37,572 bases of DNA. Origin: a virus. Location of the stretch: positions 1-37,572 of IMG/VR virus record IMGVR_UViG_3300048552_000055. The stretch is one strand, 5' to 3'. This document shows positions 826-34,492 of the stretch, in pieces (the first letter of the stretch is position 1; each line of letters opens with the position of its first letter). A model generated the notes under the pieces. The model did not search any database. It was not told the DNA's origin and saw only the letters and a program-made list of their open reading frames with translations. The position numbers and the translations under genes were made by a program.

Positions 826-855
826 ACGTACTAAATCAAATGAGTGGTATACATT

Positions 856-1443
856 ATGAAACCTAAAGAAAAACCGCATTACGTAAGTAACAAAGACTTC
901 TCAAACGCAGTCGTCGAATACTGTACCTCAGTGCATGAAGCTAAAAACGATGGAGAACCTCATCCGGTAGTAACTAACTACATCGCCTCCTGTTTTCTGA
1001 AGATCGCAGAGGGTCTCTCTCACAAGGCAAACTTTGTTCGTTACACCTATCGTGAAGAGATGGTCATGGACGCAGTGGAGAACTGTCTCAAAGCGATTGA
1101 GAACTATGATATTGAAGCGGCCACTCGTTCTGGTAAACCAAATGCATTCGCATATTTCACACAGATATCATGGTACGCATTCCTTCGTCGTATTCAAAAA
1201 GAAAAGAAACAACAAGACATCAAGATGAAGTATATCGCTGAGGCAGATATCAGCGAGTTCTTGGGTGATGATGATGACGGAATGTTTCAACAACAAACTT
1301 CCCCCTTCGTTGATACACTTAGACAGAGAATTGATGTCGTAAAAAGTGCAGACAACGAATTCAAAGAGTACGTCAAAGAAGAGAAGAAACGTAAACGACG
1401 TGCGGTGAATGTAGACTCAGACCTATCGGACTTTATAGAATAA
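856..1443 (+). CDS. 55: Late-transcription sigma factor, T4 gp55 family
   Basis: A 195-aa protein with a sigma region 2-like core: the segment AFAYFTQISWYAFLRRIQKE (about residues 93-112) is the conserved gp55 signature. In T4, gp55 replaces the host sigma on RNA polymerase, recognises the TATAAATA late box and is activated by the gp45 sliding clamp. The C-terminus is very basic (KRKRRA) and ends DLSDFIE, a hydrophobic/acidic tail like the clamp-binding end of T4 gp55. ATG 856 is preferred over ATG 844 because a GAGTGG element lies 8 nt upstream and conserved family sequence begins there. Transcribed from the perfect promoter at 797-825. Several exact late boxes in the window are its presumed targets. 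Confidence 0.93.
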   Translation: MKPKEKPHYVSNKDFSNAVVEYCTSVHEAKNDGEPHPVVTNYIASCFLKIAEGLSHKANFVRYTYREEMVMDAVENCLKAIENYDIEAATRSGKPNAFAYFTQISWYAFLRRIQKEKKQQDIKMKYIAEADISEFLGDDDDGMFQQQTSPFVDTLRQRIDVVKSADNEFKEYVKEEKKRKRRAVNVDSDLSDFIE

Positions 1444-4340: not shown

Positions 4341-5018
4341 ATGGAACTATCTAACCGAACGGTCGAGATACTGCGTAACTTCTCTACCATCAACCCAAAC
4401 ATTGTAGTCAATGGCGGCAACGTTCTGAAGACTATGTCTATTGCAAAAAACATTGTCTCCCGTGCTGAGATTGATGAGAGTTTTCCGAACACGTTCGGCA
4501 TTTACGACTTATCTGAATTCTTGTCGGTGTTGTCTTTGGTGGATCGTCCATCAATCACTTTTGGTGAGAACTTCTGTACTGTGTCGGACGGTAGTGGTCT
4601 ATCATCTGTGAAATACTTTTACTCTGACCCTGAGATGCTTTCTGCCCCCAAGAAAGACATTGTCATGCCAGAGTGTGAAGTCAAATTTTTACTCACTAAC
4701 GAAACCCTAAGTAAGATCAAACGTGCGTCTTCTGCGTTGGGTTACGAGAACATCTCTATTCGTCCCAATGGAAGTGCGGTTGAAATTACGGTAGTTGATA
4801 CCGATGATTCCACGTCTAACTCATTCTCCGTGTTAGTTGAAGGTCAATTCCCTGAAGGTGCCGACTTCAACTTTATCATGGGTGTGAATAACATGAAATT
4901 GCTGGGTGAAGACTATGAGGTGTCAATCTCTACCAAGTTGATCTCACATTTCAAATCTATAACATCTAACACGCAATACTTTATTGCACTTGAAAAGTCA
5001 TCTACTTACGGAGCATAA
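4341..5018 (+). CDS. 45: DNA polymerase sliding clamp gp45
   Basis: A 225-aa protein whose length (T4: 228 aa) and position between gp46 and the clamp-loader genes identify the trimeric sliding clamp. The N-terminal segment with NFSTINPNIVVNGG, the acidic FGIYDLSEFLSVLSL stretch and the central ISIRPNGSAVEITVVDTDD strand pattern are typical of T4-like clamps. gp45 tethers the polymerase to DNA and activates gp55-dependent late transcription. It has a dedicated perfect promoter and a strong GAGGAA ribosome site, consistent with high expression. Several proteins in this window carry C-terminal tails that resemble clamp-binding peptides. Confidence 0.92.
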   Translation: MELSNRTVEILRNFSTINPNIVVNGGNVLKTMSIAKNIVSRAEIDESFPNTFGIYDLSEFLSVLSLVDRPSITFGENFCTVSDGSGLSSVKYFYSDPEMLSAPKKDIVMPECEVKFLLTNETLSKIKRASSALGYENISIRPNGSAVEITVVDTDDSTSNSFSVLVEGQFPEGADFNFIMGVNNMKLLGEDYEVSISTKLISHFKSITSNTQYFIALEKSSTYGA

Positions 5019-5685: not shown

Positions 5686-6768
5686 ATGTCATATATCTTC
5701 ACGAGTGAGAGTGTTAGTAATGGACATCCGGACAAGGTTGCAGATGCAATTTCCGACTCTGTTGCTACATATCTCATAGACCAAAATATCAATAATCGTG
5801 CCGCAGTCGAGACCCTAGTCACGACGAATATGGTAACCCTTGCGGGAGAATACAAGAGCGACAAGTTTGATAAGAATGTCATCGACCAGATTGTGAGGGA
5901 TGTTGTAAAGAGAATTGGGTATGAGCAAGATGGGTTTCACTGGAGAGACCTAAAGATTTATAATGAACTGCATGGACAAAGTTCAGACATTGCATTAGGG
6001 ACAGATGACTTCGGTGCTGGAGATCAGGGGTTGATGTTTGGTTATGCTACCAGAGAAACCTCTAACTATATGCCTTTGGCAATTAGTCTCAGTCACAAAA
6101 TACTTCGAGAAGTTACTTCTAAATTACCATACGGACCAGACGCCAAGGCTCAAGTATCAGTAGAGTACAGTGAAGTGGGTAAACCGTTACGAGTAACCAA
6201 GGTAGTGTGTTCTGCACAACACGGAGAGGACCAAGACATAGAAGTGGTTCGCAGTAATATTGTTGCGGTAATCTCTTCTTCTCTTTCTGCTTGGGTAGAC
6301 GATAATACTGAGTATCTGATAAATCCGACTGGTAATTTTGTTATTGGTGGACCAGATGGTGATGCTGGAGTCACAGGTAGAAAAATTATTGTAGATACCT
6401 ACGGTGGTTATTGTCCTCATGGTGGTGGTGCATTCTCAGGTAAGGACTGTACCAAGGTAGACCGTTCTGGTGCATATATGGCACGATACTTAGCGAAGAA
6501 CCTTGTACATTTCAAGGGGTTTGACAACTGCACTGTTCAACTAAGTTATGCGATCGGTGTGAAAGAACCCACTAGCATTTATGTCTATGCTGACGGTAAA
6601 GTGTGGGAACATCTTGTGTCAGAGATTCGAGAGACCGTAGACCTAACTCCCAAAGGTATCATTGATCGATTTGATCTGTTTGGACTTGACCTCACTAAAA
6701 CTACCAACTATGGACACTTCGGAAAACCGGATATGCCATGGGAACGTCTCGACTTATATAAATCGTAA
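5686..6768 (+). CDS. metK: S-adenosylmethionine synthetase (methionine adenosyltransferase)
   Basis: A 360-aa enzyme forming S-adenosylmethionine from methionine and ATP. Seen: H14-P-D-K17 of the ATP site, the GAGDQGLMFGYA methionine-binding motif, GGPDGDAGVTGRK, and the glycine-rich P-loop GGGAFSGKD followed by TKVDRS. One position that is usually Pro in the last motif is Cys (KDCTK). Length is slightly below the bacterial ~385 aa, but all catalytic blocks are present. It begins 24 nt after tRNA-Thr, leaving no room for a SAM riboswitch. The two DNA methyltransferases at 14832 and 16870 would use its product, so a role in supporting phage DNA methylation is a reasonable inference. Confidence 0.95.
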   Translation: MSYIFTSESVSNGHPDKVADAISDSVATYLIDQNINNRAAVETLVTTNMVTLAGEYKSDKFDKNVIDQIVRDVVKRIGYEQDGFHWRDLKIYNELHGQSSDIALGTDDFGAGDQGLMFGYATRETSNYMPLAISLSHKILREVTSKLPYGPDAKAQVSVEYSEVGKPLRVTKVVCSAQHGEDQDIEVVRSNIVAVISSSLSAWVDDNTEYLINPTGNFVIGGPDGDAGVTGRKIIVDTYGGYCPHGGGAFSGKDCTKVDRSGAYMARYLAKNLVHFKGFDNCTVQLSYAIGVKEPTSIYVYADGKVWEHLVSEIRETVDLTPKGIIDRFDLFGLDLTKTTNYGHFGKPDMPWERLDLYKS

Positions 6769-12308: not shown

Positions 12309-12315
12309 GGTGGAC

Positions 12316-14799
12316 ATGACTAAAAAATTCTATACATCTGTTGTCCGATATGGTGACAAACTATTATACCGTGGATATGACGAAAACGGTCTCGCAACCA
12401 AATCTCGTATTCCATTCAAACCCACACTATTCATGTCCGGAGAAAGCGAGGAAGGTTGGACTACCCTAGACGGTATTCCGATGCAACCCGTCATCTTCGA
12501 GTCCATGTCAGACGCCAAAGATTTCAACAAACGTTATGAGAACGTCTCTAACTTCGAAATCGCAGGCAACACCAACTATGTCGCACAGTTCATTGCGGAA
12601 GAGTGGCCTAACCAGATTCACTATGACCGCAGTCTAATCAAGACTGCCAACATCGATATTGAGGTCTTCTCTGCCGATGGTTTCCCCGCCCCCGAAGATG
12701 CGGCACATCCTATCACTGCTATCTGTATGCGTGAGGACACCGGAACATATTGGGTCTGGGGGTGTGGTGACTACACAACCACACGCGAGGACGTTCTGTA
12801 CATCAAGTGCGACAATGAGGTTGACCTTGTGCGGAAGTTCGTTCGACGCATGGAAGAGTATGCGCCCAACGTGATTACCGGATGGAACACACGATTCTTT
12901 GATATTCCTTATCTCTATAACCGAATGGTGAAGTTGTTTGGTGACGACACCCTAGCGAAACGCATGTCTCCGTGGGGTCTTATCAAAGAACGTAATATCA
13001 CCATCAATGGTAAACAGAACCAAGAGTATATCATCAACGGTATCGAGCAACTTGACTACTTGGAAGTCTTCAAGAAGTTTACCTACAATACTCTAGGTCA
13101 ACAAGAGTCTTACCGACTCGACCACATTGCGAACGTGGTTCTGGGCGAACGCAAACTCTCATATGAGGAACACGGAAATCTGCACACACTCTATGAGCAA
13201 GACTACCAGAAGTTTATTGACTATAACGTGAAGGACGTTGAGTTAGTCCATAAACTAGATGTCAAACTCGACTTGCTTGATCTCATATTCACTATGGCTT
13301 ACAAGGCGGGTGTCAACTACAACGACACTCTGGGTACTACTGCCATCTGGGACACTATCATTTATCGACTGTTGAATAACCAGAAGATTGCGGTTCCCCC
13401 TAAGATCGAAAAACCCAAGACACCATACCCCGGCGGTTATGTGAAGGAACCACAGGTCGGTTCTCATGATTGGGTCACGTCTTTTGACTTGAACTCTCTA
13501 TATCCAAACATCATTGTGCAATACAATATGTCACCCGAGACTGTTCTGGATGGATTCCAGAATGGTGTTTCTGTCGACAAGTTCCTCGATGGTTCGGTCA
13601 ATATCGGTCAACAAGGATACTCTGTTGCTCCTACTGGTATTCGATTCACTCATGACCGTGAGGGTGTCATTCCCACGGTGATTAAACAGTACTACTCCGA
13701 ACGTCGCGTGATAAAGAACGAGATGTTGAAGTCTCAACAAGAGATGCAAACTAATCCGTCCAAGGAATTAGAATATCGGATATCCTCTCTTGACAACCAA
13801 CAGATGGCCATCAAGATTCTTATGAACTCCCTTTATGGTGCTCTGGGTAATCGGTGGTTCCGGTACTTCGACCAACGTGTTGCCGAGTCTATTACTCTTG
13901 CGGGTCAGTTGGCAATCAAGTGGGCAGAACGTTCAGTCAACACTGCTATGCAAGACGTTCTCGAAACAAATGAAGATTATGTCGTCGCAATCGATACTGA
14001 CTCCGTGTATATTCGCATGGGTGATTTGGTCGAGAAGTTTGCCCCGAAGAACCCTGTCAAGTTCCTAGATAAGATTTGCTCAGAACACTTCGAGAAGTCT
14101 CTCGCACGTGCGTACGCGACTATGGCAGATGCAACTGGTGCCTATGAGAATCGCATGGAGATGGGACGTGAGGTGATTGCAGACCGTGGTATCTGGATGG
14201 CTAAGAAACGATATATCCTCAACGTGCACAATAATGAGGGTGTCCAGTACGCAGAACCCAAACTCAAGATGATGGGTATCGAGGCAATCAAGTCTTCGAC
14301 TCCACAGGTTGTCCGTGATAAGTTCAAGGAAATCTTCCGTGTTATAGTAGAAGGTACCGAATTAGACACACAACGGTACATTTCGGACTTTAAGTCCCAT
14401 TTCAAGACCTTACCGCCCGAAGATGTATCGTTCCCTCGTGGTGTTTCTAATCTCACCAAATGGAAAGACCGCAAAACTATCTTCAAGAAGGGAACTCCCA
14501 TCCATGTGCGTGGTGCCCTGTGTTACAACAATGCGATTGATGAGAAGAATCTTGGTAAACGGTATGAGACTGTCAAACAAGGTGAGAAGATAAAGTTCGT
14601 TTATCTCAAGATGCCCAATCGTCTGGGACAGAATGTTGTGTCATATCCTCTCAACTTGCCAGAGGAACTTGGACTCCATAAGTATGTGGACTATGACATG
14701 ATGTTTGACAAGACTTTTCTAGACCCTCTGATTCCGATTCTAGATGCAGTGGGGTGGGACGCAGAACCACAGGCATCACTTGAAGACTTCTTCGGTTGA
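12316..14799 (+). CDS. 43: DNA polymerase gp43 (family B, with 3'-5' exonuclease)
   Basis: An 827-aa replicative polymerase. Seen in order: exonuclease motif with DIEVF (about 115), NTRFFDIPY (exo II), motif [10 protein letters not shown], motif [14 protein letters not shown], motif C IDTDSVY, and KKRY. The start MTKKFYTSV aligns with the T4 gp43 N-terminus; the upstream in-frame ATGs at 12280 and 12307 lie inside the promoter. The C-terminus ends ASLEDFFG, matching the known clamp-binding tail of T4-like polymerases. The transcript from the promoter at 12280-12308 would be leaderless. A single ORF with no intron or intein. Confidence 0.96.
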
Positions 14800-14824
14800 C
14801 AGACCGACAATATTTTGGTATAAT
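14796..14824 (+). promoter_or_regulatory. Sigma-70 promoter placing the D12 methylase on a leaderless mRNA
   Basis: TTGACA 14796-14801, 17-bp spacer, TATAAT 14819-14824, then 7 nt to ATG 14832. It overlaps the gp43 stop codon. Confidence 0.85.
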
Positions 14825-14831
14825 ACCCCGT

Positions 14832-15710
14832 ATGAAAGACTTAAAGACACCACTTCGATATCCTGGCGGCAAATCTCGTGCCGTTGATTTTTTATTCTCT
14901 CCGGAGAATATGCCCATTGCTGACATTCGCGAATACCGTGAGATGTTCCTAGGTGGTGGGTCGTGTGCGTTCTCGTTCACTAAAAAGTTCCCCAACATTC
15001 CTGTCAAGGTCAACGACAAATACTACAACCTTTATTGTTTCTGGAAGTCACTCCAGAGCCGTGGTCATGACCTTGCGGACAAACTACATGCAGTCAAGGA
15101 TGAACTGTCCGACGCAGAGGATTCTTTACAGGCGCACCTTGACTACTACCATGTCATGCGCGAGGGTCTGAGTACCGTAGAGGACCCTTTCGAGATCGCA
15201 TGGCGGTTCTATGTTATGAACCGATGCTCGTTCAGTGGATTGGGTGAGACTACTGGTTCGTTTTCAAAAGATGCGGTGCGTGACCTATTCAACCATCGAC
15301 TGATTGGTAAGTTGCCCAAGTTCTCTGCGTTGATGCGCAACTGGGAGATCACCAACGAGGACTACTCGTATCTGTTGGATGGTGCGGACAAGAACACATT
15401 CGTCTTTGCTGATCCACCATATGACATCAAGTCTTTCATCTATGGTAACAAGGGTGACATGCATGACACATTCTGTCACAAGCGTTTCCACGATGAACTC
15501 GACAACACCGATGCGATGGTGATGATCACCTACAACTCTAACGACACACTCAAGCAGGCATACACTGGTTGGAGTCAGTTGGAGTGGGATTTGACCTACA
15601 CTATGGTATCCACCAAGAAATATACTGAAGAACAACATTTGAGGAAAGAGTTGTTACTTTGGAATTATGAAGAGCAAGGTGTATCTACTCTGGATGCGTT
15701 CTTCGGATGA
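14832..15710 (+). CDS. D12-class DNA adenine-N6 methyltransferase (Dam-like)
   Basis: A 292-aa enzyme that methylates adenine in DNA. Seen: the SAM-binding start LRYPGGK (8-14), FLGGGSCAFSF, RCSFSGLGETTGSF and the catalytic ADPPYDIK with D194-P-P-Y197. The class includes Dam (GATC) and EcoRV-type methylases, so the target here is not certain. The ORF begins within 7 nt of a perfect promoter, predicting a leaderless mRNA. It ends STLDAFFG, nearly the same tail as the polymerase (ASLEDFFG). Its stop overlaps the start of a BglII-like nuclease (ATGA), forming a restriction-modification pair. Confidence 0.92.
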   Translation: MKDLKTPLRYPGGKSRAVDFLFSPENMPIADIREYREMFLGGGSCAFSFTKKFPNIPVKVNDKYYNLYCFWKSLQSRGHDLADKLHAVKDELSDAEDSLQAHLDYYHVMREGLSTVEDPFEIAWRFYVMNRCSFSGLGETTGSFSKDAVRDLFNHRLIGKLPKFSALMRNWEITNEDYSYLLDGADKNTFVFADPPYDIKSFIYGNKGDMHDTFCHKRFHDELDNTDAMVMITYNSNDTLKQAYTGWSQLEWDLTYTMVSTKKYTEEQHLRKELLLWNYEEQGVSTLDAFFG

Positions 15711-16237
15711 TTGTTTCTAAGATGAGACTGTACAACATGGAGATGTGCGATTCTCTCGAAGAAATTGTTTCTATACTGAACACTGATTTCATCGGAAACT
15801 ACATGTCTAAGATCAGTAAAGAGTCTACCAGAAAGGGTCGAAAGCAATTGAGCCCCCAATCTTTGAATTCTGAATATTCCAAATTGTTCAAGCGTAACGG
15901 TTTCGTTGAATATTGTCCTTTCAAAAATTCTAAGGATGAGATAGACTTTTTCAAAGATGGTGTGGGTGTAGAAATCCAATTTGGTAAGTATCCATATGTG
16001 ACTTATGATATCTTTACAAAACTAGGACCGTGTACTCTGGACGGTACTCTCAAGTTTGGGGTAGAGGTCATTCCAACTAAGAATATGTACGATAAGATGT
16101 CGACCGGAGTTGCTAACTTCGATGCCGAGGTTGTGAGATTGGATAGATGTTCTATTGATTTCCCTTTGGCAGTTATCGGTATCGAACCGACAAAAGAAAT
16201 TGAGTCTCCTAACAACATCGAAAACTTTTTTGAATAA
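15707..16237 (+). CDS. BglII-like restriction endonuclease (putative)
   Basis: A 176-aa protein with the segment DEIDFFKDGVGVEIQFGKY. D80, E89 and Q91 give the unusual Asp-x8-Glu-x-Gln site; from memory this is the spacing of BglII (Asp84, Glu93, Gln95), where Gln replaces the usual Lys of PD-(D/E)xK nucleases. The basic patch TRKGRKQLSPQSLN upstream is typical for DNA contact. It is translationally coupled (ATGA) to the D12 methylase, the standard order of a type II system. It is shorter than BglII (223 aa). The C-terminus NNIENFFE resembles the clamp-binding tails of its neighbours. Specificity unknown; cutting of unmodified host or rival DNA is inferred. Confidence 0.72.
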   Translation: MIVSKMRLYNMEMCDSLEEIVSILNTDFIGNYMSKISKESTRKGRKQLSPQSLNSEYSKLFKRNGFVEYCPFKNSKDEIDFFKDGVGVEIQFGKYPYVTYDIFTKLGPCTLDGTLKFGVEVIPTKNMYDKMSTGVANFDAEVVRLDRCSIDFPLAVIGIEPTKEIESPNNIENFFE

Positions 16238-16251
16238 TTCGAAAAAAACAC

Positions 16252-16280
16252 TTGACATATGTTCTCGAAACAAGTATAAT
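16252..16280 (+). promoter_or_regulatory. Sigma-70 promoter for the second restriction-modification pair
   Basis: TTGACA 16252-16257, 17-bp spacer, TATAAT 16275-16280, giving a leader of about 24 nt with GATGAGAGAG before ATG 16311. Confidence 0.85.
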
Positions 16281-16310
16281 GTTTACATAAATTGATGAGA
16301 GAGATATATT

Positions 16311-16886
16311 ATGAGAGACCTTACTGAATACACCTACGAAGAACTTGCCGCTGCCCTTTATAAGAAGGGTATCAATGACGGTTACTCTAAAGTTACTGAT
16401 AAGACTAAGTGGCGTGAACCTGTTATGGCTGATAAGTTAGGTCATGTCGCCCACAAGAAGATATCTGCTGGTGCCGGTAAGGATGAGTACGGTTCCGATG
16501 CTTTTGATCCGACCAACGGCAAGTATGCAGAATATAAGTCTAATGCAATCGATGATAAGAAACTCCGCAACCTGTTGCAGACTAGTAACGGTAAGCGTCG
16601 TTATGTTCCTCTCAAGGTGAGTGGTGTTTACAACGGTGCTTATAAAGAGTCTGCACTTGTCGCTTACGAAGATGTTGACCACTACTTCGGTGTATTCTAT
16701 CAAGAAGAATGTGTGTTAGTAGTCAAGCCAAACACTACAAATGTCATGCGTCAATTGCGTGAGAATAACGCCAAGCGTAAGCCAGGCCAGACAACAAACC
16801 TAAACACTGTCGTCGTCGACTTAGGTGATCTGTCTTCATACGAAGTTTCCTACAAGAAGGAGAGTTTTTTTGCGACTAGTCAATAA
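16311..16886 (+). CDS. Putative type II restriction endonuclease, PD-(D/E)xK type
   Basis: A 191-aa protein. GSDAFDPTNGKYAEYKSN (61-78) contains acidic residues D63/D66 and the E74-Y-K76 pair, a plausible PD-(D/E)xK active site in which the region after the acidic residue forms the beta hairpin. Basic residues around 44-57 (GHVAHKKISAGAGK) and 89-98 could contact DNA. It overlaps the following methyltransferase by 17 nt, and this pairing is the main reason for calling it a nuclease. Near its end it has KKESFFATSQ, a weaker version of the FF tail seen in neighbours. Family not recognised by name. Confidence 0.6.
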   Translation: MRDLTEYTYEELAAALYKKGINDGYSKVTDKTKWREPVMADKLGHVAHKKISAGAGKDEYGSDAFDPTNGKYAEYKSNAIDDKKLRNLLQTSNGKRRYVPLKVSGVYNGAYKESALVAYEDVDHYFGVFYQEECVLVVKPNTTNVMRQLRENNAKRKPGQTTNLNTVVVDLGDLSSYEVSYKKESFFATSQ

Positions 16887-17631
16887 AGACTGTATCGAAT
16901 TTCTAAAAGAACTGCCAGACAATAGTGTGGATCATGTCAATTGCGATCCACCCTACAATATTGGATATGATGGTGGTGACGGATGGGACACGTTTCCTAC
17001 CGAAGACGTGTATCTGGAATGGTGTCGTGAGTGGATAACTGAGTGTGCTCGTGTACTCAAACCAGAAGGCATGATGTGTATCTGGGGAACTCAGAAGACC
17101 GATCTTTTCTTTCGATTGAAACTAGAGGTCCTCAATAAAGTAGAGGGTCTTGTCGCACAATCTCCAATACATTGGTCCTACAACTGGGGTGGTCGTCCTA
17201 GAAATAACTTCGCACACAAGTTTGAAACTGCGTGGTGTTATTCCAAAGGTAAGACTTTCTTTTTCGACCGTACCCATGTTGAAGTGGAACGTAAGATGAA
17301 AATCAATGTGCGTACCGGAAAACCATTTGATAATGGGACAATCCCCACTACTATATGGGAAGGTAATCTCACCACTAATTCGTCTGAGGCTAAAGAGTCC
17401 AACTTCCACCCCACAGTGAAACCTCAGTTTGTTTTGCAACGCATGATATATGCATACACCAGAGAAGGTGACACCGTGTTAGATTGTTTCAGTGGTAGTG
17501 GTTCTACTGCGATTGCCAGTCTTGAGACCGGAAGAAAATTTATTGGGTGTGAGATGAGTTCTGAGTATTACGAAAAGTCTCTAGAAAGAATATCTAAGTA
17601 CGAGTGTATACTTGACAGTTTCTTTGAATAG
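16870..17631 (+). CDS. Beta-class DNA methyltransferase (N6-adenine or N4-cytosine)
   Basis: A 253-aa enzyme. Catalytic motif DPPYN is at 26-30 and the SAM motif DCFSGSGST near 216-224, the order that defines the beta class; HPTVKP precedes the SAM motif as usual. I choose TTG 16870 as start: AAGGAGAG (16857-16864) ends 5 nt upstream, and the family N-terminus begins there; an in-frame GTG at 16825 lies deep in the nuclease gene. Rare TTG use and a 17-nt overlap imply dependence on nuclease translation. The C-terminus reads ILDSFFE, another clamp-type tail. The recognition sequence is unknown. Confidence 0.9.
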   Translation: MRLVNKDCIEFLKELPDNSVDHVNCDPPYNIGYDGGDGWDTFPTEDVYLEWCREWITECARVLKPEGMMCIWGTQKTDLFFRLKLEVLNKVEGLVAQSPIHWSYNWGGRPRNNFAHKFETAWCYSKGKTFFFDRTHVEVERKMKINVRTGKPFDNGTIPTTIWEGNLTTNSSEAKESNFHPTVKPQFVLQRMIYAYTREGDTVLDCFSGSGSTAIASLETGRKFIGCEMSSEYYEKSLERISKYECILDSFFE

Positions 17632-17640
17632 TGGTATAAT
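17612..17640 (+). promoter_or_regulatory. Sigma-70 promoter placing the primase on a leaderless mRNA
   Basis: TTGACA 17612-17617, 17-bp spacer, TATAAT 17635-17640, then TACCCCC (7 nt) and ATG 17648. It overlaps the methylase 3' end. Confidence 0.85.
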
Positions 17641-27705: not shown

Positions 27706-28944
27706 ATGAAAAAACGAGATTATTCACAACAGGATGTGAATCGATTACAAGGCACGGTTCAAATCGACCATACCCTCGCAAAGATGGGTGCGACTAAACT
27801 GCGTCAGTTATTCGAAGATAATGAGTACATCAATACTTTTGGAGCATACAATGGCCAACAAGCAGTACAACATGTCAAAGCAGGACTCAAAGCGATATAC
27901 CTTTCGGGATGGCAGGTGGCAGCGTCCGCAAACTCTCATGGAGAAGTCTATCCGGATCAGTCTCTATACGCTGTTGATAGCGTTCCTAATGTGGTCAGGT
28001 CTATCAATAATGCATTTAGACGACAAGACCAGATCGAATATTTGGAATCTGGGCGGGGGTTTGAATTTGCTCCCATTATTGCAGACGCCGAGGCAGGATT
28101 CGGAGGAGTTCTGAATGCGTACGAACTTTCTCGTAACCTCATTGAGGCAGGTGCTGCCGCTGTTCACTTTGAAGACCAAGTTGCTGCCGAGAAGAAGTGC
28201 GGACACTTGGGAGGAAAAGTTCTCATACCGACTAGTCAAGCTCTACGCAACCTTAATGCCGCTCGCCTTGCTAGTGACGTTGCTGGCACTGATACAGTCG
28301 TTATTGCTCGTACCGATGCTGAGTCTGCTAAACTAATCTCTAGTGATGTTTCGCTCATTGACAAACCATTTATCAAGAGAGCCCGACAAGGCAAGGCCTC
28401 TATTCAATGTCGCACACAGGAAGGGTTCTACCAACTAGATGAAAGTAGAGGTCTAGAGTTCGGTTGTGTGCGTGGTCAGGCATACGCAGAATACGCAGAC
28501 CTCGTTTGGTGTGAAACATCGACACCAGACTTGAAGGATGCGAAGCGTTTCGCTGACGCAGTCAAAGGTGCAGTGCCCGACGCAATGTTGGCATACAACT
28601 GTTCACCGTCATTCAACTGGCGCAAGTCAATTCCCGGCGATCAAGAACTGAAAGACTTCCAACGTGAGTTGGGTAAGATGGGATTCAAGTTCCAGTTCAT
28701 CACGCTCGCTGGTTTCCACCAGACAAACTACTCTATCTTTGACTTCGCGAACCGATACAAAGACGAAGGTATGTACGCATACTCTTTGTTACAAGAATCA
28801 GAGTTTGCCGCAGAGTCACGTGGATACACAGGTGCGAAGCACCAGAGAGAAGTGGGTGTCGGTTACTTCGATGCCATCACCACTACTCTGGGTTCTAGTT
28901 CAACTGCCGCCATGGCGGGATCAACTGAAGAGGGACAGTTCTAA
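27706..28944 (+). CDS. aceA: Isocitrate lyase
   Basis: A 412-aa enzyme that splits isocitrate into glyoxylate and succinate, the first step of the glyoxylate shunt. Seen: SGWQVAASAN (67-76), metal-binding ADAEAGFGG (126-134), the catalytic K163-K-C-G-H167 with nucleophile C165, ARTDA, NCSPSFNWRK, FQFITLAGFH and the conserved end GSTEEGQF. All diagnostic blocks are intact, so it should be active. It is about 20 residues shorter than E. coli AceA (434 aa). It is co-transcribed with tRNA-Glu from a perfect promoter, and its stop overlaps the next start. No malate synthase is present in the window. Confidence 0.95.
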   Translation: MKKRDYSQQDVNRLQGTVQIDHTLAKMGATKLRQLFEDNEYINTFGAYNGQQAVQHVKAGLKAIYLSGWQVAASANSHGEVYPDQSLYAVDSVPNVVRSINNAFRRQDQIEYLESGRGFEFAPIIADAEAGFGGVLNAYELSRNLIEAGAAAVHFEDQVAAEKKCGHLGGKVLIPTSQALRNLNAARLASDVAGTDTVVIARTDAESAKLISSDVSLIDKPFIKRARQGKASIQCRTQEGFYQLDESRGLEFGCVRGQAYAEYADLVWCETSTPDLKDAKRFADAVKGAVPDAMLAYNCSPSFNWRKSIPGDQELKDFQRELGKMGFKFQFITLAGFHQTNYSIFDFANRYKDEGMYAYSLLQESEFAAESRGYTGAKHQREVGVGYFDAITTTLGSSSTAAMAGSTEEGQF

Positions 28945-33043: not shown

Positions 33044-33082
33044 TTTTATTATAGAAGACGAGTTTTGAGAGGCTCTTATATT

Positions 33083-34492
33083 ATGAAAAACCTACTAACT
33101 GTAGCATTATGCACAACTGTACTTAGCGCATGTTCAGGTGGCAGTTCTAATTCTGCACCAGAACCAGTGACCGTGACACCCCCATCTGCACCAGAACCGA
33201 CAGCACTAGAGGTCGCAGTTGATGATCTGAAACAGTTGATGAGTTCATCATCCCCTACAGGTTCCTATGAAGGATATATTCTCCCAGAGAGTGACGACTT
33301 CCTAAACATTCCCCAAGACCCCAGTAACCCAATCACCGCAGAGAAGGTAGCACTGGGACAGTTGATCTATCATGAGACTGGTATCACCGACGGCAACATC
33401 GCGGGTATGGAAGATACTTTCTCTTGTGCATCATGTCACAACGCACAGAACGGATTCAAGTCCGGTATTCGTCAAGGTATTGGCGAAGGTGGTGTCGGTT
33501 TTGATCATCGTATGATTGCTGAGGGTGTCAATCCCGAAGACATCGATGTACAACCCGTCACATCACCTACAGTACTGAACACTGCCTACCAAGAAGTCAT
33601 GTTGTGGAATGGTCAGTTCGGTAACGTCATTGGTGGTATCGTCAATGTTGGTATTGATCCGGATCGTCACTTTACAGAAGGTACTCCCAAAGAGGCTAAC
33701 CTACGTAGTCTCGCCGGTCTAGAAACACAGGCAGTTGCGGGACTTGGTGTTCACCGTATGAATGTGGAAGAGGGTTCTATCCTAACCACCAACGAGAAAT
33801 ATCAGATGATGTTCGAAGCGGCATATGGTACGTCACAACCGCACGATATGTTGGAAGCGGCATCTTTTGCAATTGCCGCATACGAGAGAACCATTCTCGC
33901 AAACCAAGCACCATTTCAAGACTTCCTACGAGGTGACGAAGAGGCATTGACCCTAGAAGAAGTAGAAGGTGCGAAAGTATTCTTCGGTAAAGGTCAGTGT
34001 GCCGGTTGTCATAACGGTCCCGCTCTTTCATCTCCTGTCGGTTCTCTTGCCAGTGAGATGTTTATGACACTTGGATTTCATGACCTAGATATATGGGATG
34101 ACGTAGTTGGTGATGTAAACGAAGCGACCAAAGCGGGACGTGGTGGTTTTACGGGTGACGATATGGATAAGTTCGCGTTCAAAGTACCACCACTTTACAA
34201 CCTTATAGATACTACTGTATTCGGTCATGGTGCGTCGTTCTCTAGTGTAGAAGATGTAGTACGATACAAAGTTGCCGCATCACCTCAACATCCTCAAGTA
34301 GAGATTGTTGATCTAGACTATAGGTTCACACCACTTGACTTGACTGAAGAAGAAATTGCTAACCTAGTTACGTTCTTAGAGACAAGTCTGTACGATCCTG
34401 AGTTGATGCGATACGTACCGGAAGAATTACCTAGTGGTTTGTGTGTCACTAATAATGATGAAGAATCACGACGTGACTTAGGATGCGACTAA
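33083..34492 (+). CDS. Di-heme cytochrome c peroxidase/MauG-family lipoprotein
   Basis: A 469-aa protein. Signal peptide and lipobox L14-S-A-C17 predict a lipid-anchored periplasmic protein, followed by a Pro/Ser-rich linker to about residue 40. Two c-type heme sites are present: C115-A-S-C-H119 and C306-A-G-C-H310, in the usual two-domain order. Family segments include AIAAYERTILANQAPF and GAKVFFGKGQC. Bacterial enzymes reduce hydrogen peroxide with electrons from cytochrome c; MauG relatives oxidise other substrates. It is longer than typical peroxidases (about 330 aa). Heme attachment would need the host Ccm system. ATG 33083 is preferred over TTG 33065 because the signal peptide starts there. 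Co-transcribed with tRNA-Ser. Confidence 0.92.
   Translation: MKNLLTVALCTTVLSACSGGSSNSAPEPVTVTPPSAPEPTALEVAVDDLKQLMSSSSPTGSYEGYILPESDDFLNIPQDPSNPITAEKVALGQLIYHETGITDGNIAGMEDTFSCASCHNAQNGFKSGIRQGIGEGGVGFDHRMIAEGVNPEDIDVQPVTSPTVLNTAYQEVMLWNGQFGNVIGGIVNVGIDPDRHFTEGTPKEANLRSLAGLETQAVAGLGVHRMNVEEGSILTTNEKYQMMFEAAYGTSQPHDMLEAASFAIAAYERTILANQAPFQDFLRGDEEALTLEEVEGAKVFFGKGQCAGCHNGPALSSPVGSLASEMFMTLGFHDLDIWDDVVGDVNEATKAGRGGFTGDDMDKFAFKVPPLYNLIDTTVFGHGASFSSVEDVVRYKVAASPQHPQVEIVDLDYRFTPLDLTEEEIANLVTFLETSLYDPELMRYVPEELPSGLCVTNNDEESRRDLGCD

Follow-up and report, generated by a model that had tools for sequence, protein, structure and literature searches.

What appears to be a nuclease-methylase island within the replication cluster of a marine T4-like phage raises the question of whether its four genes form two restriction-modification systems, and of how the phage would avoid being cut by its own nucleases. 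The window considered here is the whole stretch of 37,572 bases of virus record IMGVR_UViG_3300048552_000055, which is probably a fragment of a T4-like phage genome. A preliminary description had proposed two complete restriction-modification pairs in tandem, with which the phage would methylate its own DNA and destroy that of its host or of competing phages. We favour another arrangement and give it about an even chance of being right: the second nuclease and methylase (R2, M2) would form a type II pair, the first nuclease (R1) would be a separately acquired, RGATCY-specific enzyme downstream of an orphan methylase (M1) that was there before it, the genome would have been purged of RGATCY, and M1, R1 and M2 would be docked to the gp45 sliding clamp. 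In our opinion, the absence of RGATCY and the tails of clamp type are of more interest than the gene pairs themselves.

Table 1. Features of the window that bear on the nuclease-methylase island.
Feature	Position	Strand	Evidence or remark
Late sigma factor (gp55-like)	844..1443	+	By synteny with C48C1; C-terminus DLSDFIE
gp45-type sliding clamp, proposed docking partner	4341..5018	+	PF09116 7e-12
S-adenosylmethionine synthetase, possible methyl-donor supply	5686..6768	+	
Family B DNA polymerase (gp43-like)	12313..14799	+	C-terminus SLEDFFG, reference clamp-type tail
Sigma70-type promoter before M1, perfect TTGACA-N17-TATAAT	14796..14824	+	Overlaps polymerase stop codon
M1, D12 (alpha-class) amino-methyltransferase, DPPY	14832..15710	+	PF02086 4e-23; PDB 7m6b 1.5e-44
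M1 tail TLDAFFG, clamp-binding type	15687..15707	+	Kept in 47/48 distinct relatives
R1, BglII/BstYI-family restriction endonuclease	15707..16237	+	PF09195 5e-12; BstYI 7.8e-17; PADLOC REase_II 1e-18
R1 C-terminal extension TKEIESPNNIENFFE	16190..16234	+	Past the end of the BstYI and BcepIL02 homologues
Promoter of R2-M2 unit, perfect TTGACA-N17-TATAAT	16252..16280	+	
R2, PvuII-fold PD-(D/E)XK nuclease (predicted)	16311..16886	+	Alignment; AlphaFold; Foldseek 1pvu
M2, beta-class amino-methyltransferase (m6A type, DPPY)	16870..17631	+	PF01555 6e-49; PDB RsrI 1.3e-29
M2 tail ILDSFFE, clamp-binding type	17608..17628	+	
Primase promoter, perfect TTGACA-N17-TATAAT	17612..17640	+	Within M2 tail codons

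The replication context is T4-like, as had been recognized before: profile searches identified a family B polymerase, a gp45 clamp (PF09116), UvsX and a primase in the window. Among isolates and in GenBank, Phage C48C1 (Kyanoviridae) comes closest, sharing 72% identity in the polymerase and 85% in M1. Its polymerase, M1 and primase follow the same order as in the window, but R1, R2 and M2 are missing. In the window, the four reading frames are all open at the positions of Table 1 and lie between polymerase and primase as two units, each with a perfect TTGACA-N17-TATAAT promoter ahead of it; the second of these promoters had already been predicted. A scan of the window for this pattern yielded 16 matches with at most one mismatch vs. 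0.4 expected, and ten perfect promoters are found in the window as a whole. M1 and R1 overlap by ATGA, while M2 starts with TTG at 16870, after AAGGAGAG, and overlaps R2 by 17 nt. Both gene couples are composed as first described, the one of a D12-class methylase and an overlapping nuclease with a BglII-type D-x8-E-x-Q site (PF02086, PF09195), the other of a nuclease with an EYK motif (D63-x10-E74-Y-K76) and an overlapping beta-class methylase (PF01555) in which both DPPYN and FSGSGST are present.

Judged by its sequence, R1 is a member of the BglII/BstYI restriction family. It scores 46.2 bits against the PF09195 profile (cut-off 26), and its intact D80-x8-E89-x-Q91 lines up with the BstYI site in the HMMER alignment, so that the restriction fold anticipated for this reading frame is borne out at sequence level by PF09195 and BstYI. 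R1 shares with the family the fold signature and the D-x8-E-x-Q motif, and differs from it in being shorter (176 aa) and in carrying a 15-residue clamp-type tail: BstYI and the homologue of phage BcepIL02 both stop at the residue equivalent to R1 161, and R1 continues with TKEIESPNNIENFFE. Within IMG/VR, homologues of R1 were found in this species only. Relatives occur in phages BcepIL02 and DC1, each adjoining a methylase. The BcepIL02 methylase is a beta-class SPPY enzyme unrelated to M1, whereas R1 stands beside a D12 methylase. The G+C content of R1 is 38% vs. 46-47% in the polymerase and M1, which suggests that R1 was acquired late.

RGATCY is the recognition site of BstYI, and, in a further parallel to this family, it is absent from R1's own genome as represented by the window. 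None of the 86 GATC in the window lies within RGATCY, the four R-Y flank combinations being empty and the other twelve filled. Among 1,144 IUPAC palindromes tested in the window RGATCY is the most depleted, with 0 occurrences vs. 31.1 +/- 5.0 in synonymous codon shuffles. In loci with M1 and without R1, RGATCY accounts for 24% of GATC (802/3283), a difference from the window with a binomial p-value of 3e-11 that overstates independence because the loci are related. Of these loci, 56 have 20 or more GATC, and RGATCY occurs in every one of them; the pieces of C48C1 that were counted contain RGATCY at 165 of 766 GATC. The phage therefore seems to be protected from R1 by lacking its sites, not by M1.

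Restriction systems of the hosts could also drive the avoidance of RGATCY (and of TTAA, see below), R1 being an incidental arrival from the same gene pool. Within the Burkholderia Lessievirus, RGATCY is avoided equally in phages with and without the BstYI-like gene, and it is likewise avoided in the marine locus L058, whose 22.8 kb contig encodes no member of the BglII family; avoidance may for this reason be host-driven. BcepIL02 and DC1 were considered as independent proof that a BstYI-like gene causes RGATCY loss and were rejected, as BcepMigl, JC1 and CSP3 avoid the site about equally without the gene. Two nearly identical contigs, L005 and L038, point in the same direction, having neither R1 nor a single RGATCY, and in L005 the tail of M1 seems to preserve an ancestral state. 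However, host pressure would leave it to coincidence that the purged site matches that of the phage's own nuclease family, and it sits poorly with the 56 marine M1 loci above, all with RGATCY, and with the normal counts in C48C1 and in further relatives whose M1 is closely similar. We regard a purely host-driven origin as doubtful, though it deserves some weight. The history of the R1 site in L005 and L038 can be read in both directions. The first 12 nt of R1 are fused there to the R1 end, resembling a deletion scar, and this favours deletion; the M1 tail codons, which depart from the window's at six synonymous positions within 16 nt, are closer to those of relatives than the window's are, and this favours insertion. 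In either case, the sequences indicate that recombination acted here.

M1 is, as far as its distribution tells, a mobile and mostly solitary methylase. Its homologues adjoin polymerase, capsid, tail and other genes, and a nuclease is usually absent nearby. The top PDB match of M1 is 7m6b, which we take to be M.CbeI, an N4-cytosine enzyme for GGCC. M1 as a plain Dam was rejected, considering 1.5e-44 for 7m6b vs. 0.007-0.008 for the DNA adenine methylase chains 2g1p and 4rtj. If M1 has the specificity of M.CbeI, it cannot protect RGATCY. M.CbeI has been described as a DPPY-bearing N4-cytosine methylase with the target GGCC (PMC3425538). M1 resembles the alpha-class N4-cytosine methylases M.CbeI and DmtB in its DPPY motif, and differs from them in its clamp-type tail and in being an orphan in most phages. 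Other nucleases occur next to M1 homologues in a few loci. In L067 (1518-1919) and L070 (6686-7087) another PD-(D/E)XK nuclease (PF11645 for L067), with a C-terminus NNWEFFG of its own, overlaps the M1 stop, and in L056 (2304-2840) a third nuclease-like reading frame (PD..ECK), with no family above cut-off, lies near M1.

Of the two complete pairs claimed, R2-M2, which recur together in 17 loci, finds support, and M1-R1 as a self-protecting pair does not. The latter is probably a pseudo-pair rather than a classic one. Two conventional type II pairs, with M1 methylating the R1 site, M2 methylating the R2 site and depletion arising as a side effect of incomplete protection, would account for the M1-R1 gene order with its ATGA overlap and for the R2-M2 association, and a working methylase can coexist with depletion of its system's own site. 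Linkage of M1 and R1 is not upheld across relatives, however: M1 is mostly found without R1, and R1's phage relatives adjoin a different (SPPY) class of methylase. The base composition of R1 differs from that of M1, and the total absence of RGATCY would be needless if M1 protected the R1 sites. We thus think it unlikely that both couples are conventional systems, and favour a cognate R2-M2 beside an M1 and R1 that are probably no pair.

R2-M2, in its distribution, behaves as a cognate type II restriction-modification pair. Homologues of both genes occur together in 17 dereplicated viral loci, where they are overlapping, separated, reversed (L017) or convergent (L018). In 15 more loci an unrelated nuclease takes the place of R2 upstream of M2, and the two of these that were tested both matched PADLOC REase_II. 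The varied co-occurrence and the repeated replacement argue for a true pair with exchangeable nucleases. M2 is RsrI/MboII/CcrM-like.

For R2, profile and sequence searches found neither a named family above cut-off nor a Pfam or PDB sequence match. An alignment of 10 sequences shows E36, D63, E74 and K76 to be invariant, and an AlphaFold model built with nine viral relatives reached a pLDDT of 86 and a pTM of 0.85. In Foldseek, the PDB matches of this model at E < 0.001 were all to PvuII (1pvu; E 2.3e-4, probability 1.00). Since the TM-scores are about 0.5, the likeness is one of fold only. The active-site stretch YGSDAFDPTNGKYAEYKSNAID lines up with a 21-residue stretch of PvuII, and the restriction fold first suggested for R2 is in this way supported by the predicted structure. 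R2 thus resembles PvuII in predicted fold and in the D-x(n)-E-x-K stretch, but differs from it in that the sequence profiles are not linked (hhalign probability 0.2), in its partner, M2 being of the m6A type with DPPY, and in its target, which is perhaps TTAA. Weak matches of R2 to SAM lyase and DrmA (E 0.003 and 0.0006, the Pfam one below cut-off) were rejected, since the nuclease motif is invariant and the predicted fold is that of PvuII. No relatives of R2 were found in sequenced prokaryote genomes in two scans, nor among GenBank phages.

TTAA is strongly depleted in the coding DNA of the window (18 vs. 121). Among 4-base palindromes, it also separates M2-bearing from M2-less dereplicated loci most clearly, in a comparison that kinship among the loci may inflate. 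AGCT is likewise low in M2 loci with an alternative nuclease, and TTAA did not differ significantly between loci with M2 and R2 and those with M2 alone (p 0.21). We take TTAA depletion as a lead for the target of M2 only; that R2 and M2 share this site is weakly hinted at. Six loci with an M2 homologue and an alternative nuclease (L186, L134, L165, L178, L184 and L187) have TTAA observed/expected values of 0-0.07 in 9-13 kb. In the related R2-M2 phages L013 (5.6 kb) and L015 (7.2 kb), GATC is at zero, which suggests another total site purge.

A second feature, which is new with respect to the preliminary description, is the likeness of the C-termini of M1 (LDAFFG), R1 (IENFFE) and M2 (LDSFFE) to those of the polymerase (LEDFFG) and the late sigma factor (LSDFIE). 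The motif ends five of the 35 proteins of the window vs. 0.16 expected from its internal rate, a figure that serves as a guide only because the pattern was written post hoc. Independent evidence comes from conservation: in M1 the tail is kept in all but one of 48 distinct relatives despite a variable preceding linker, and three cyanophage homologues end without it. The M2 tail is found in only eight of 64 distinct relatives, and the R1 tail is from one species only. In T4, gp43, gp55 and gp33 attach to the gp45 clamp by C-termini of a similar kind, which are interchangeable (PMC2988020). Given the conservation of the M1 tail, the T4 precedent and the presence of gp45 in the window, tethering to the clamp is the most economical reading, and by this analogy M1, R1 and M2 look clamp-tethered. 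As putative clamp ligands, the tails share with the T4 ligands a short hydrophobic and acidic C-terminal peptide that is portable between proteins (PMC2988020), and differ in being located on methylases and a restriction nuclease. In the titles and abstracts of the partial literature searched, no clamp-binding motif on phage methyltransferases or restriction enzymes was found.

The FFG/FFE tails might instead be a compositional or recombinational relic of promoter-adjacent 3' ends. Tail codons are indeed overlapped or adjoined by the -35 boxes (14796 and 17612), and the clustering of synonymous differences within the M1 tail is suggestive of recombination. Such a relic would, however, hardly be conserved at protein level across M1 relatives in which gene position and linker vary, nor would it be common to the polymerase and the late sigma factor, whose counterparts in T4 contact gp45 by way of the C-terminus (PMC2988020). 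We consider this explanation improbable and continue with clamp tethering.

The mechanism that we posit, from clamp binding and enzyme specificities to catalysis and biological role, builds on the families, motifs, site absence and co-occurrence observed here. Early in infection, host RNA polymerase would transcribe both units from their consensus promoters. Methylases docked to gp45 would mark phage DNA during its synthesis, so that methylation follows the fork, perhaps fed by the phage's own S-adenosylmethionine synthetase. R2 would cut DNA without the M2 mark, and R1, patrolling clamp-bearing DNA, would cut at RGATCY, which is absent from the sequenced part of the phage; immunity to R1 would result from this purge and not from M1. 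The targets may be host DNA, for nucleotide salvage and shut-off, or competing phages. Destruction of host or competitor DNA is plausible by analogy with chloroviruses and marseilleviruses, lytic viruses in which a nuclease and a methylase have been proposed to serve this purpose (PMC7253447). Marseilleviruses, however, guard their own sites by methylation, whereas the R1 site is absent here; the presumed host of the window phage, unlike those of these viruses, is bacterial, and its enzymes have clamp-type tails.

It is conceivable, with a probability that we place somewhat short of even, that a restriction nuclease and two methylases are tethered to the sliding clamp and act coupled to replication, with self-immunity to one nuclease achieved by total site loss and independent of a methylase. 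If true, phage restriction would be possible without a cognate methylase, through site purging, and enzymes that modify DNA as well as enzymes that cut it would be brought to the replication clamp by a portable C-terminal peptide. It would become directly testable how a lytic phage that encodes restriction enzymes escapes self-cutting during replication, and the tail motif may serve as a sequence rule to find further clamp-docked phage proteins.

The window contains further genes of interest. The S-adenosylmethionine synthetase encoded by the phage exceeds the cut-off in each of its three Pfam domains. A gene of the isocitrate lyase family (27706-28944; PF00463 6e-90) is a metabolic gene unusual for a phage, positions 33065-34492 encode a MauG-like di-haem cytochrome c peroxidase that bears a signal of lipoprotein type, and 12 tRNA genes are present.
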